A stretch of DNA of 64,000 nucleotides, taken from the NCBI RefSeq assembly GCF_013402815.2, contig NZ_CP058601.1, forward strand, positions 1,860,001-1,924,000, written 5' to 3'. Origin of the DNA: Natrinema halophilum (lineage in GTDB: Archaea; Halobacteriota; Halobacteria; Halobacteriales; Natrialbaceae). The notes under the pieces are model-generated. The model saw only the letters and a list, made by a program, of their open reading frames with translations, did not search any database and had not been told where the DNA came from. Positions 12,487 through 22,698 of this stretch are shown here, one piece after another; position 1 is the stretch's first letter, and each line of letters opens with the position of its first letter. A program made the translations under genes and the position numbers.

Positions 12487-12771
12487 TCAGGCCGATAGTT
12501 CGCGCAACGTCGTCGTGCCATCCTGCTGAACCCGGATACGGTACCCCTCGTAGTCGAACGCGATACAGGCGTCAGCCTCGTCGGGTGGCGGCGACGAGAA
12601 CAGATCGGCGATGAGGGTATCGATACAGCCGTACACTGGGGTGAGGTTCAGTGGCTCGTCGTCGGTAAGATCGGCAACGACTTCGGCGAGTTGGCTCGCC
12701 GGATCGTCCCGTTCGGGGTTCAGCTGCCGCCGTATTACGTCGTCACCGGTGCCGTCGCTCAGTTCAGTCAT
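12487..12771 (-). CDS. HalOD1 output domain protein
   Basis: A 94-residue haloarchaeal HalOD1 domain, usually a signal-output module of phosphorelay proteins but often free-standing. The start is set at MTELSDGTGDD; upstream sequence in the same frame is basic and unlike the family. The core pattern is visible: VVADLTDDEPLNLTPVYGCID, then FDYEGYRIRVQQDGTTTL. Partner and signal unknown. Confidence 0.75.
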   Translation of the reverse strand: MTELSDGTGDDVIRRQLNPERDDPASQLAEVVADLTDDEPLNLTPVYGCIDTLIADLFSSPPPDEADACIAFDYEGYRIRVQQDGTTTLRELSA

Positions 12772-12996
12772 TATCCGATATCGGAACGTCGGCAGCCGTC
12801 GGCGTAACGATTTCACCGGCTCTTGCGTGTCTCGCTTATCGGCTCTCGTCGCGTTCCCCGGCGTCCGCATCGTTCCGGTCGTCGCGCTCCGTTTTTCGTC
12901 TCGTAGCCGCAACCGGTACGCTCGAGTCGCGGACAGCCGCCCTCCCGACGGCCTGCCGAACACTCATACGTTCCGTCAGCGTAATCCCGCCGATCG

Positions 12997-13666: not shown

Positions 13667-14446
13667 TCAGAGTTCGCCTGAACGGATCCGCTCCTCGGCG
13701 TCCTCGAGCGCGCGTTCGCGATCGAAGTTTGCGACGATCGTTCGCAGGTCGGCCTCGTCGGCGCCCGCCAACTCCAGTGCGTGGTCGGTCACGTTCGGCA
13801 CTGCACGAATGATGTTGTCGACGATCGGCACGTCGGCGACCTGCGGCGATCGCGACAGCGGATTGAGATCGATGACGATTTCGGTCTTGCCCATCTCGTC
13901 GAGGGCCTCGGCGCGATCGCCGTCCTCGAGCGGGACGAGAACCACGTCGGCCTCGTAGATTCCGTCGGCGTCGACCTTCGACCGCTCGTGATCCAGATTC
14001 GGAATGTGCGCGTCGGCCTCGAGCCCTTTTACCTCGTCGGCTCCGTGCTCACGGAGGTGATCGACGATGGCATCGATTCGCTCGGGGGTGCGGTTGAACA
14101 GGTTCACCTCGAGGTCGGCGCCCGTTGCCTCGGCGAGTTCGACCATCTCTCCGGGGACGAGCGCAGCGACGTTGCCGTTGATCGAGAGCACGGGGTGGTC
14201 CGCGAGCAGGAGGTGAGCCGCGGCCGCCCGTTCGGCGTCGTCCGCGCTGGGGATGGTCTCCTCACCCAGCAGGTAATCGAACGCGCTGCCACGTCCCTCA
14301 GCGTGCATCCCCTGGAGGTGGGTAATTCCTTTTTCGACGCCTGCTTCGATCCGATGGCGGGTGAGTAGATCCTGATATCTGGGGTGGTCCTCCGGGATCT
14401 CCTCCTCGTGCTCGACGTCGGCGGAGACGGTGTCGTAATCGCTCAC
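13667..14446 (-). CDS. 4-phosphopantoate--beta-alanine ligase (phosphopantothenate synthetase)
   Basis: Archaeal CoA-biosynthesis enzyme (COG1701) that joins 4-phosphopantoate to beta-alanine using ATP. The 259 residues start with GTG. Family features are HPRYQDLLTRHRIEAGVEKGI near the N-terminus, HPVLSINGNVAALVPGEMVELAE and VEVNLFNR-type ATP-site segments, and DLNPLSRSPQVADVPIVDN. Its substrate is made by the pantoate kinase at 21570-22403, which often sits next to this gene in archaea; here they are 7 kb apart. The first 16 coding bases and the promoter are repeated at 15645-15710. Confidence 0.92.
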   Translation of the reverse strand: MSDYDTVSADVEHEEEIPEDHPRYQDLLTRHRIEAGVEKGITHLQGMHAEGRGSAFDYLLGEETIPSADDAERAAAAHLLLADHPVLSINGNVAALVPGEMVELAEATGADLEVNLFNRTPERIDAIVDHLREHGADEVKGLEADAHIPNLDHERSKVDADGIYEADVVLVPLEDGDRAEALDEMGKTEIVIDLNPLSRSPQVADVPIVDNIIRAVPNVTDHALELAGADEADLRTIVANFDRERALEDAEERIRSGEL

Positions 14447-17321: not shown

Positions 17322-18299
17322 ATGGACGTTCGACTACCAAAGCGATGGGTACGGCGCGTGCTGATTCTGGCCCCATTCCTCATCGTCGTGGCGTATTTCC
17401 GGTACCGCAATGAGTCCGATTCGTCACCGAATCCGCGACCGCGAGATCCGATTACCGAACGTGATGCGACTGCGTTTCTCATTCCTCGGCGGATCGAGCC
17501 CGGCCACGTCGAGACGATCCGCGATCACGTCTCGAGGACCGTCATCGGGAGCGATCCGGACCGATTGTTGCGAATCGACGGGGCGAGCACCGCATCACTC
17601 TGTCTCGATCAGGGTCGCGACCCGCCGGAAATCGTCTGGTACGTCGAAATACCGAGCGCCGTCGTCGGGGAGTGGGACGATCCAGAATCGCGGGTCGGAG
17701 ACGCGTTTCCCGTCGAACACGAGCGAATCGGTCCCACCGTCGAACCGGTCGATCGGGACCTGCTCGTTCACGCCGCAAATCCGTCGCGGCCGCGATCGAT
17801 CGTCCCCGACGAACGAGGACCGGTCGATCCGACCGCGCCGGCCGCTGTCCGGCGTGTGGAGGTCGAACTGGTCCGGATGCGTCTCGAATCCGGGCTTCCG
17901 GAGCGGCTCGCTGACCGGTTCGCGCGCGTCTCGCGACGAGTGGCCGCCGGCGAGGTGGATCTCGGCCCCGTCGAAACGTGGAGTCTCGACATGCTCGAGG
18001 CGGAAGCCATGTTTACGGAATCTGTCTTCCTCGAGCGCCGCCTGAGCGGCTACGAACTCGTCCAGTACATGGAGGCGAGCGAAATGCGGCGAGTGTACGA
18101 CGTCTACGACGATAGCTGGAATCCGGTCGCTCGGCTGTCGGCGGTCGTTCTCGACCTGGGACTGGACGATCCGAGTTGTATCCTCGACTATCCACTCGAG
18201 AGCGATTTCGAGGCGATCGCACACGTCGTCCACCCGAATCGACCCCGTCGGGTCGGAGAGCGTCGGGCGGAGGAAAAAGAAGATCGCTCGGGAGACTGA
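17322..18299 (+). CDS. Membrane-anchored haloarchaeal protein with DUF6176-like C-terminal domain
   Basis: A 325-residue protein with one N-terminal hydrophobic helix (about 12-26, VLILAPFLIVVAYF) followed by a soluble part made of two similar halves. The second half, VEVELVRMRLESGLPERLADRFARV ... ELVQYMEASEMRRVYDVYDDS ... FEAIAHVVHPNR, resembles the haloarchaeal DUF6176 pattern; the first half has the corresponding WYVEIP and LVHAANPSR stretches. It appears to be a tandem dimeric alpha/beta-barrel-like fold on a membrane anchor. Function unknown; DUF naming is from memory. Confidence 0.68.
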   Translation: MDVRLPKRWVRRVLILAPFLIVVAYFRYRNESDSSPNPRPRDPITERDATAFLIPRRIEPGHVETIRDHVSRTVIGSDPDRLLRIDGASTASLCLDQGRDPPEIVWYVEIPSAVVGEWDDPESRVGDAFPVEHERIGPTVEPVDRDLLVHAANPSRPRSIVPDERGPVDPTAPAAVRRVEVELVRMRLESGLPERLADRFARVSRRVAAGEVDLGPVETWSLDMLEAEAMFTESVFLERRLSGYELVQYMEASEMRRVYDVYDDSWNPVARLSAVVLDLGLDDPSCILDYPLESDFEAIAHVVHPNRPRRVGERRAEEKEDRSGD

Positions 18300-18324: not shown

Positions 18325-21243
18325 TCACTCCGTGAAGGTGATCCAGCCCTCCGGGGCCTGTGCTTTCACGTCGTTCATCGCCTCCCGGGCGGCGGTCCGG
18401 GTCTCGTAAGTCTGGGTGCTTTCGGCCATCGTCGCACCGTACTCGTCGATCAGCTGCCAGACCCAGCCGTCGTCGTCGGTGTGGAGTTCGAACGAAACGC
18501 TGTCTATCTCGAGGATGCTCGCCGATTCGATCAGGTCGCGGACGTTCTCGAGGGCTTCGCGGACGTCTTCGGACGTGTCGTGGGCTTCCGATCCGGTGGC
18601 AACGGTCCGGCCATCTTCGTCGATGAGCCGCCAGCGCCAGCGGTCGTCCTCGTCGGCGACGAGTTCGAAGGAGGCGACGTCGAAGTCGACGCGGCCGGCC
18701 ATCGGTGCGAGCTGGCGGACTTCCTCGATCGCATCGAAGAGATCGTCCTTGCTCGAAACGGTCCCGACCGTTTCGGCGAGCACCTCGCGGTCGCGATCGA
18801 CGAGCTCCCAGGACCAGTCGTCGTCTCCCACGGGTCGAATAACGGCATCTTCGATCGAGAAGATGGGTGCGTCAGCGGCGTGTTCCCCGAGGTCTTCGAC
18901 CCCGGCCATCGCCGCCTCGCGGTCGTTCCAGGACACGCTCGAATCGGCGATCTCGTTGCGGTCGCGGTCGAGCAGTCGGAAGTGCCACTCGTCGGTGCCG
19001 TACAATTGGACGGACACGTCGCCGATCGTGTAGGATCGGGCTGACGCCGCAGCCTCGCGGACGTCGTCGAGACTGTCGACTAGTTCGTCGCGAGTCGAAT
19101 ACGCATCGCCGTCGACGGCGACGGTTTCTCCGGCCGGCATAACGAACCGCCAGTGCCAGTCCTCGTTCGCAAACGGCTGGAAGATCGAACGATCCATCGT
19201 CCGCACGTCGGAGTCGAGGTGCTCGAGCAGCCGATCCATCGCCTGACGGGCGGCGCTTCGTGTCGGATGCGTCGACGGGTCCTCGGCGACGAGCTTCCCG
19301 CCCTCGTCGATGAGTCGCCAGCCCCATTCGTCGTTTTCGTTGACGAACAGCTCGAACGCCGCGGTCTCGATCTCGAGCAGTTCGGCGTCGGGGGCCTGTT
19401 CTTTCAGCGTCATCATCGCTTCGGCGGCCTCGCCGCGAGAGGTGTGTTCCTCGCCGCTATCCGCCAGTACGTTGCCGTCCTCGTCGATGAGCCGCCAGCG
19501 CCACTCGCCGGAGTCGGCCTCGTAGACCTGGAACGCTGCGTTCTCGAACTCGATGAGATCGGCTTCGCTGGCCTGTTGGCGAACGCGCTCGATCGCGTCC
19601 GCCGCCGCCTCCGCGTCCGCGTGGGGCTCCGTACTCCCGGCGACGATCTCGCGGTCGTCGGTGACGAGTCGCCAGTGCCACGGACTGTCCTCGTCGGCTT
19701 CAGACCCGTCGTCAGTGACCGTCCCGCCATCTGCGACTCGTTCGGGGTCTTCGACGGTCGCCGGAAGCGTATCGTCCCCGTCGTACGTGAATTCGTCGGC
19801 GTCGGATCCGCTCGCCGATTCGGGGGCCGGATACACTTCGTACTCAGCGTCGTCGATTTCGACGACGTCGGCTTCGCGCGCATTTTCGCTAAATTGGTCG
19901 GCCAATCGTTCCGAGCCGCCGAGTTCGGACGTCCTGTCCGGACTCCGCGCGACGACGTGTTCGTTCGCGTCGACGAGGCGGTAGCGCCACTCCTCGCCCG
20001 ACTCGTAGAGTTCGTACGTCGGTTCGCCGGCCACGGTGATCGAGGCCGATTCCAGACCGGGCAGCAACGCTTCGGCGGCCTTCTCGGCGTCGCGTCTGGC
20101 GTCGAACGAGTCCGTACTGGTCGCGAGGACCGTGTCGTCCGCGTCGACGAATCGCCAGGTCCAGCCGTCCGCCCCCTCACAGAGCTCCACGCCGACGTGT
20201 TCGACGTCGAGGACGCGTGCGCGATCGAACCGCTCGGCGAACGTACGGGCGGCCTCTTCGGCGCGTTCCTGGGTCGGGTGGCCCGTCTCGCTCGAGGCCA
20301 GCGGCGTCCGATCGTCGTCGACCAGTTGCCAGTACCACCGATCCCGGCGTTCCTCGTACGTGAACGCGGCACCTTCGATTTCGATAACGGCGGCTTCGGG
20401 GCCGCGGTCTTTCAGAAAGCTTACCGACTCCTCGGCGCCGTCGCGCTGGTCGAATTCGCCTGCACAGGAGCCGACGATCGAGCCGTCGTCGCGCGCGAGG
20501 GTCCACTGCCACGTCCCGTCGCGATCCTCGTACAGCCGGAACGCCGAGGTCGTCAGTTCCATCAGTCCCGCGGAGCTGATCTGGGACTTGACGCGCTCGA
20601 TGCTCTCCGTGGCGTCAGGTCGGGTCACGGCACTCTCGTTGCTCTGGGCCAGCGCCTCGAGGTGGAGGACGTGCCACTTCCAGTCACCGGTCTCGTCACG
20701 AAAGACGGCAAACTGAGCGCTTTCCATCGCGTCACCGGTGAGTATCGGCGGATCTTCGGTCTGGCCTTCCTCTGCGACGAACATCCCTTTTTGCCCGGTG
20801 AGGACGGGAACGAGTGCGGTAACGCCCGCGATGACCCCGATCCCGAACGTATAGACGGAAATTACTTCGACGCTGTAGTCCGTCCCGAGTGCCCGCCAGT
20901 TGTACGGGTAGGCCCACCCGAAAAATCCGACTCCCGCAAACGAGATGAGCAGGCCGACGAAGCTTGCCTGAATTCCTCGCTTTCGCACCGGAAGCATCAG
21001 TACGATTCCGAACAGACAAAACGCGAGTCCTGTCGCGGCCGTGATCCCGGAGATCTTGATTAGCGCGTAGGAGTTCGCCTCACCCGCGTATCCGACGACG
21101 AAGGTCGCGACGCCGGCTGCCCCGATAATGTAACCGACGATGAACAGCCAATAGCCGTAGACGTCCTTGCTCGAGTCAGGTTCGCCGACGTAGTGTTCGT
21201 ACAACTGAAACAAACTTTGCTGAATGTCAGTTCGTGAAGCCAT
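18325..21243 (-). CDS. Membrane protein with thirteen tandem DUF1508 (YegP-like) units
   Basis: A 972-residue protein starting at MASRTDIQQSLF. Five or so transmembrane helices occupy about residues 25-165. The rest is a chain of about 13 units of 56-60 residues, each with the DUF1508 pattern FxLYEDxDGxWxWRLxDxDGxxxAxSxExxxxRxxAxxAxxxxKxxAPxA. Bacterial YegP-type proteins typically have one or two units. The units are well diverged, so the array is old rather than recently amplified. Unit 6 has a long acidic insert. The soluble chain is probably cytoplasmic. Upstream codons (to 21297) lack similarity and were dropped. Function unknown. Confidence 0.85.
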   Translation of the reverse strand: MASRTDIQQSLFQLYEHYVGEPDSSKDVYGYWLFIVGYIIGAAGVATFVVGYAGEANSYALIKISGITAATGLAFCLFGIVLMLPVRKRGIQASFVGLLISFAGVGFFGWAYPYNWRALGTDYSVEVISVYTFGIGVIAGVTALVPVLTGQKGMFVAEEGQTEDPPILTGDAMESAQFAVFRDETGDWKWHVLHLEALAQSNESAVTRPDATESIERVKSQISSAGLMELTTSAFRLYEDRDGTWQWTLARDDGSIVGSCAGEFDQRDGAEESVSFLKDRGPEAAVIEIEGAAFTYEERRDRWYWQLVDDDRTPLASSETGHPTQERAEEAARTFAERFDRARVLDVEHVGVELCEGADGWTWRFVDADDTVLATSTDSFDARRDAEKAAEALLPGLESASITVAGEPTYELYESGEEWRYRLVDANEHVVARSPDRTSELGGSERLADQFSENAREADVVEIDDAEYEVYPAPESASGSDADEFTYDGDDTLPATVEDPERVADGGTVTDDGSEADEDSPWHWRLVTDDREIVAGSTEPHADAEAAADAIERVRQQASEADLIEFENAAFQVYEADSGEWRWRLIDEDGNVLADSGEEHTSRGEAAEAMMTLKEQAPDAELLEIETAAFELFVNENDEWGWRLIDEGGKLVAEDPSTHPTRSAARQAMDRLLEHLDSDVRTMDRSIFQPFANEDWHWRFVMPAGETVAVDGDAYSTRDELVDSLDDVREAAASARSYTIGDVSVQLYGTDEWHFRLLDRDRNEIADSSVSWNDREAAMAGVEDLGEHAADAPIFSIEDAVIRPVGDDDWSWELVDRDREVLAETVGTVSSKDDLFDAIEEVRQLAPMAGRVDFDVASFELVADEDDRWRWRLIDEDGRTVATGSEAHDTSEDVREALENVRDLIESASILEIDSVSFELHTDDDGWVWQLIDEYGATMAESTQTYETRTAAREAMNDVKAQAPEGWITFTE

Positions 21244-21569: not shown

Positions 21570-22403
21570 CTACCGCAACATGGCACCGGCAGGATGGGTT
21601 GCACAGACGGATGGATCGTAGCCGGCGTCGGAGAGACCCGTCCCGAGCGCGAAGACCGTTTCGCCGAGCATCGCCATCGACGCCTGTCCGTCGACCGCCG
21701 ATACGTCCGCGATCGTTTCGGTGACGCGCTCAGTTAGCAACTCGGCTTCGCGTGCGAACAGCCGCGAGGCGTACATGAACGACAGCAGGGTCGGCTCCTC
21801 GACGACCCTCGAGAGCGCCTGTTTTCCGGCAGCCGTCAGCTGATCGGTATCGTTCGAGAGAACGTCGGCTGTCGAGAGACCACCGAAGGAGACGTATTCT
21901 ACGCGCGCCCGCTCCGGAATCGCGTCGAGGTGGTTGTCCTGTGGACCCCCGGGCTCGAGACGAATCGGGACGCCGCCGTGAGCCTGCGCCACTACGTCGC
22001 CGAGTCCCGTCCCGGCCTGCACCTCGGCACCGTGGGCGATCGTCACGAGTTCGTTCATCGAGAGTTTGCGTTCGAACACGCGGTTCCCTGCGAGTGCCGT
22101 TCCGAGCGCCATCGCCCCCGAAATGCCGAATCCGGCTCCGATTGGTAGTTCGGCGTCTGCTTCGACGCGGGCAGTCGCGTCGAGCGTCTCTAGAACGGTC
22201 ACCACTGGATCGATGTTGATTTCCGTCCCGTTCAGCACGACGCTCGATTCGTCGCCCGTGGCGGGTTCGACTGTCAATTCGACACCGTCCGTCAGCGTCA
22301 GTCCTGCACCCCGTGAGCCAGCTTTGGTCGGATCCTCGTCCGGGTGGGCGCTGAAAAAGCCAGTGATGTGACCGGGTACGAACGCGGTCGCCTCCTCACG
22401 CAT
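21570..22403 (-). CDS. Pantoate kinase (archaeal GHMP kinase)
   Basis: Phosphorylates pantoate to 4-phosphopantoate in the archaeal route to CoA (COG1829). The 277-residue protein starts at MREEATAFVPGHITGFF; upstream codons were rejected. Typical features are the N-terminal VPGHITGFFSAH, the GHMP phosphate loop LPIGAGFGISGAMALGTALA (about 107-126) and the GTGLGDVVAQAHGG segment. Its product feeds the synthetase at 13667-14446; in many archaea the two are neighbours. Confidence 0.92.
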   Translation of the reverse strand: MREEATAFVPGHITGFFSAHPDEDPTKAGSRGAGLTLTDGVELTVEPATGDESSVVLNGTEINIDPVVTVLETLDATARVEADAELPIGAGFGISGAMALGTALAGNRVFERKLSMNELVTIAHGAEVQAGTGLGDVVAQAHGGVPIRLEPGGPQDNHLDAIPERARVEYVSFGGLSTADVLSNDTDQLTAAGKQALSRVVEEPTLLSFMYASRLFAREAELLTERVTETIADVSAVDGQASMAMLGETVFALGTGLSDAGYDPSVCATHPAGAMLR

Positions 22404-22698
22404 TACGCGCCCGATTTCGGCCCGAGCGATATAACCTTGCGGTTCTCCGTGCCATATGGCCGAGTCCACATCTCATCGGAAGCAGGTTCGGGACGAAAAC
22501 GGTGAACCTCGGACGCGATCGAGAACCTGCGGCTCGATTTCGATAGTTCCGAGTTTTATTCCACATTTTTGATATGATCAAATATAGTATACGGGACGTC
22601 ACTTGAATACACGTCCTTCAGAGAAAGAACGTTCAACAGGATGTTCGTGGAACAGCGTTTGAGTCATGCCAACAAATGATTTTCGAAGTGAACGACAG

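Follow-up and report, generated by a model that had tools for sequence, protein, structure and literature searches.

A membrane-domain protein with thirteen consecutive DUF1508 units in Natrinema halophilum and the constancy of its array among haloarchaea

Locus, domain layout and unit fold

The window, that is, the whole stretch of DNA analysed, comprises 64,000 nucleotides of the Natrinema halophilum contig NZ_CP058601.1, and all coordinates given below refer to it. An open reading frame of 972 amino acids occupies 18325..21243 of the minus strand, with the start ATG at 21243 and the stop at 18325-18327, and encodes a DUF7139 domain followed by 13 DUF1508/HVO_2922 units. The DUF7139 four-helix membrane domain (residues 9-153; 20785..21219, minus strand) matches PF23600 over nearly its full length (model positions 1-148 of 150; E=8e-42, 142.8 bits versus a cut-off of 30) and contains four hydrophobic helices by hydropathy, which the AF2 model places at residues 25-53, 58-82, 88-111 and 121-149. 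The short Arg/Lys-rich loop between helices 2 and 3 (PVRKRGIQ), on the same membrane side as both termini, carries a mean of 2.5 basic and no acidic residues, while each of the two remaining loops is neutral or acidic. Positively charged loops are cytoplasmic according to the positive-inside rule; thus, the helix 2-3 loop, both ends and the C-terminal array are probably located on the cytoplasmic side.

Behind the membrane domain, 13 units of 57-59 residues tile residues 175-972 head to tail with a spacing of 57-60, according to a profile built from the units. By this profile and the orthologue alignment, and all on the minus strand, the first half of the array consists of unit 1 (residues 176-232; 20548..20718), unit 2 (233-291; 20371..20547), unit 3 (292-349; 20197..20370), unit 4 (350-407; 20023..20196) and unit 5 (408-465; 19849..20022), the latter fast-evolving by dN/dS, followed by unit 6 (466-568; 19540..19848). 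The sole gap in the tiling is an acidic insert of ~45 residues within unit 6; in the AF2 model, strand 1 spans 466-472 and strand 2 spans 522-528, which places the insert in the unit's first hairpin (low-confidence residues 473-521; 19681..19827, minus strand). The central unit 7 (569-627; 19363..19539), near-invariant by orthologue identity and dN/dS, is followed by unit 8 (628-685; 19189..19362), unit 9 (686-742; 19018..19188), unit 10 (743-799; 18847..19017), unit 11 (800-856; 18676..18846), unit 12 (857-915; 18499..18675) and unit 13 (916-972; 18328..18498). The array is therefore free of long linkers, its 13 units being directly consecutive, and it holds exactly 13 W-x-[WFY]-x-[LFV] cores, eight of them of the strict W-x-W-x-L form.

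The first-pass annotation, made from the letters alone, had read about 13 DUF1508 units behind a multi-helix membrane domain, and this reading is borne out by two profiles that give 13 units and by the four helices of DUF7139. The Pfam DUF1508 family (PF07411) is matched at E=1.4e-74 with 246 bits versus the curated cut-off of 22, with nine stretches passing on their own, and the same cut-off is passed by 19 of 19 orthologues. The NCBIfam HVO_2922 model (NF041908) finds 13 stretches at E=4.5e-87 and 286 bits versus the cut-off of 90, the score being a sum over units for a model of 54 positions. The protein is thus built from the HVO_2922 domain and is no HVO_2922 equivalog, as 13 units with a membrane domain stand against a single-domain family. 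An FtsQ/DivIB identity (PF03799; 30 bits versus the cut-off of 21) was rejected as a cross-hit lying wholly over units 11-12 and occurring in 10 of 19 orthologues; a tryptophan-tRNA ligase model, an IS6 transposase and other weak matches fall inside the DUF1508 units, far under their curated cut-offs. PRK12284, a long tryptophan-tRNA ligase model, is matched over its C-terminal part (positions 335-405 of 431), far below its cut-off, by 18 of 19 orthologues, and some bacterial TrpRS may have a DUF1508-like C-terminal domain.

The full-length AF2 model (pLDDT 54, pTM 0.24) shows, after four long helices, a beta-beta-beta-alpha pattern that recurs along the array; being too poor for tertiary conclusions, it was used for secondary structure alone. 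A three-unit AF2 model of units 7-9, based on an alignment of 76 non-overlapping three-unit stretches from 19 orthologues, has confident unit blocks (mostly pLDDT 78-89) with low-confidence junctions, and at pTM 0.36 it leaves the placement between units, such as a YegP-like packing of two, unfixed. Confident units with low-confidence linkers are compatible with a predicted arrangement of beads on a string. Foldseek ranked YegP, SO3888 and HVO_2922 first for this model, and VIA-align put HVO_2922 on top (Z 8.8, 60 aligned, 3.6 A), followed by NMB1088 (Z 7.5), YegP (Z 6.5), Atu0232 and SO3888. The closest solved relative by sequence is likewise HVO_2922 of Haloferax volcanii (6q2z; 1e-9 with a single sequence, 2e-11 with a profile). 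The unit fold is settled by the agreement of profiles, solved homologues and AlphaFold models.

Distribution, unit number and unit individuality

With a strong match defined as a best E below 1e-75 and the genomes tallied by hand, relatives of the protein were found in 79 of 101 sampled genomes of its own family (Natrialbaceae), with named orthologues in Natrinema, Natronorubrum, Natrialba, Halopiger and Haloterrigena species, and in 24 of 290 sampled genomes of other haloarchaeal families. Among the sampled genomes of the same phylum outside the class Halobacteria, the long array was not found, and the matches there were weak and short. About one fifth of the sampled family genomes are without the gene, which is thus dispensable in many lineages.

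Of 71 distinct sequences, which reach down to about 35% identity and include four of a second, diverged paralogue, 69 have 13 units; by threshold, 68 give 13 and one gives 12, but in the latter unit 5 can still be recognised, with a small insert. The two exceptions are the array of Natrinema thermotolerans DSM 11552, frameshifted into two overlapping frames (L087/L205), and that of a relative of the same genus (L206, genome G391), from which units 3-11 have been deleted in frame. The size of the array had been called unusual; the protein is not peculiar to the present genome and belongs to a widespread haloarchaeal family. The opposite expectation, a common protein with variable unit numbers, holds for its commonness in the clade and fails for the number. 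The second 13-unit paralogue, present in some family genomes (L185-L188), has a membrane domain that has eroded. A relative of this second kind is carried by a 255-kb plasmid (NC_013924.1) in Natrialba magadii ATCC 43099, and its public record annotates it as a DUF1508 protein.

The units have kept their individuality. Among 39 diverse sequences, the nearest unit in another genome occupies the same position for 502 of 507 units, with an identity of 42-75% within one position and mostly 23-40% between positions. Because units are closest to the same-position units elsewhere, the array was complete before the sampled lineages separated, with count and order retained since. Unit 7, the exact middle of the array, is the most conserved one, with a mean of 75% across the diverse set, where units 6, 8, 2 and 13 rank next; its identity to the 18 closer orthologues, whose units are 60-97% identical, reaches 97%, and among all units it is the most similar to the free single-unit haloarchaeal proteins (41%). 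No unit has a dN/dS as high as 0.4, and unit 7 takes the lowest or near-lowest values, 0.02-0.05; the whole chain is under purifying selection, so that the array is neither a product of chance nor an artefact. The earlier view of diverged units in an array that has been kept is supported by the age of the array, the low inter-unit identity and the selection throughout. The insert of unit 6 (about 42% identity to orthologues over residues 467-510) ranks first in dN/dS among the regions in two of the three comparisons, and some orthologues, including L150 and L152, lack it.

Related proteins and gene neighbourhood

HVO_2922 (UPF0339, 6q2z, NF041908) shares the unit fold and the sequence family, but, unlike the 13-unit protein, is a single 60-residue unit without a membrane domain, with two chains in the deposited structure. 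Likewise, E. coli YegP (2k8e) and Shewanella SO3888 (2k49), of PF07411, have the same fold with tandem units per chain, but in only 116-118 residues and without a membrane domain. Other haloarchaeal DUF1508 forms are soluble two-unit proteins and single-unit proteins. The two-part architecture recurs in proteins that join a DUF7139-type domain to five DUF1508 units, a number that is also constant (5 in 13 of 13 sampled); however, their units are closer to the free single-unit proteins (47-60%) than those of the 13-unit array (24-41%), and a pantoate kinase-like (PoK) or phosphopantothenate synthetase (PPS) gene is nearby in only 1 of 13 loci. The members of this five-unit class (L169-L181), mostly from other haloarchaeal families, combine four membrane helices with exactly five units, in a spacing pattern that recurs, and one open frame is without helices. 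The same membrane domain occurs without an array in DUF7139 proteins of about 315-350 aa, two of them encoded in this genome; the full sequences of these two contain no DUF1508 units and have a low-complexity tail and, near the end, a cysteine motif. One paper places HVO_2922, described as a putative YegP protein, in the DNA repair group of its perchlorate-induced genes (PMC12175516). In the literature searched, no tested function was found for HVO_2922, DUF1508/YegP or DUF7139, and no paper on DUF7139. Both domains are already catalogued yet uncharacterised; the new elements are the unchanging number of 13, the position-specific identity of each unit, the frozen unit at the centre and the synteny.

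Upstream of the array gene lies the gene of the PoK, a GHMP kinase (21570..22469, minus strand; PF00288 above the cut-off, NF040725 at E=2e-52 yet under its curated cut-off), with an aspartyl-tRNA synthetase gene (AspS) beyond it. The downstream neighbour encodes the PPS, a 4-phosphopantoate--beta-alanine ligase (13667..14446, minus strand; NF041123 and PF02006 above the cut-offs), which is about 4 kb from the array here and directly follows it in many relatives. An ORF of 325 aa without a family match (17322-18299, plus strand) lies between the array gene and an HTH regulator gene; it has no full counterpart in the compared loci, with a 36-residue match in L206 only. A HalOD1-domain protein (12487-12963, minus strand) matches the DdfA disk-determining-factor model with a score below the cut-off.

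In 35 fetched intact loci, which were hand-chosen and form no random sample, PPS is near the array in 29, usually with PoK on the opposite side, and PoK alone in one more, while neither is near in five, all of other families. In ten members of the genus that lack an intact array at the locus, PoK and PPS are retained, mostly adjacent or nearly so. Array loss and relocation thus rule out an obligate array-PoK-PPS module, and the link of the array with PoK and PPS is old but not obligate. A tie to CoA biosynthesis is suggested by gene order alone.

Possible role of the array

The most plausible and most economical reading of these features, as we infer, is a scaffold, in keeping with the scaffold or multivalent binder proposed in the first-pass annotation: a membrane-tethered cytoplasmic array of fixed length and multivalent character with unit 7 as its docking site, to which a probability of about 0.5 is assigned. 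In this reading, the four-helix DUF7139 domain would anchor the 13-unit array at the membrane, with the array in the cytoplasm, and the units would act as stable beads of a multivalent scaffold of fixed length. The units probably self-associate, since solved single-unit relatives were deposited as several chains (6q2z two, 3bid eight, 2k7i two) and YegP-type chains hold two units, as do by length the solved chains of 2k8e and 2k49. Most of the flanking units would associate in cis to form a structural arm, and unit 7 would serve as the main docking point, receiving either the free single-unit protein of the same cell or the unit 7 of a second copy. The odd number of units with a frozen central one suggests, speculatively, a 6 + 1 + 6 layout in which unit 7 is left free for partner binding. 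The genome also codes for a separate, free single-unit protein, which could be such a partner. A more specific and less probable form of this reading is that 13 position-specific modules (six, the docking unit and six) assemble free HVO_2922-type proteins or other partners in fixed stoichiometry at the cytoplasmic membrane.

A passive mechanical or spacer protein, selected for length and not for binding, for example as a tether of fixed reach from the membrane to the nucleoid or another structure, would also account for the fixed count and order, the variable sequence of units 3-5 and 9-11 and the low-confidence linkers of the model; it is, however, unlikely because constraint differs greatly along the array: unit 7 is near-invariant, and units 1, 2, 8 and 13 are strongly conserved, which argues for specific surfaces. 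The fixed number alone is no proof of constraint, because units so diverged cannot easily recombine. The number may simply have become stuck in an ordinary uncharacterised domain-repeat protein, as a mean identity between units of mostly 25-30% makes slippage unlikely, and one relative shows an in-frame loss of units 3-11 and a second one a frameshift; whole-unit deletion is always possible, yet it is seen in 1 of 71 sequences, in a genus that is losing the gene, and this frozen accident is judged rather improbable. Least probable is a CoA-pathway scaffold in which the array, at the membrane, tethers PoK and PPS or acts as a sensor of a CoA precursor, with phosphopantoate channelled between the two enzymes, as the order AspS - PoK - array - PPS, on one strand and kept across several haloarchaeal families, with the frequent proximity of PPS, is explained equally well by synteny by descent, the genes persist together without an intact array in ten genus members and lie far from it in five loci of other families, and the enzymes work without the array in other archaea.

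The DUF1508/YegP fold is widespread, and an array with individual units and a frozen centre points to the surfaces that matter in it. The scaffold assembling HVO_2922-type proteins, if true, would be the first function for this fold. The array offers a genetic handle in tractable haloarchaea, in which the constancy of 13 units, and of five in the sister class, is directly testable by unit deletion or addition.
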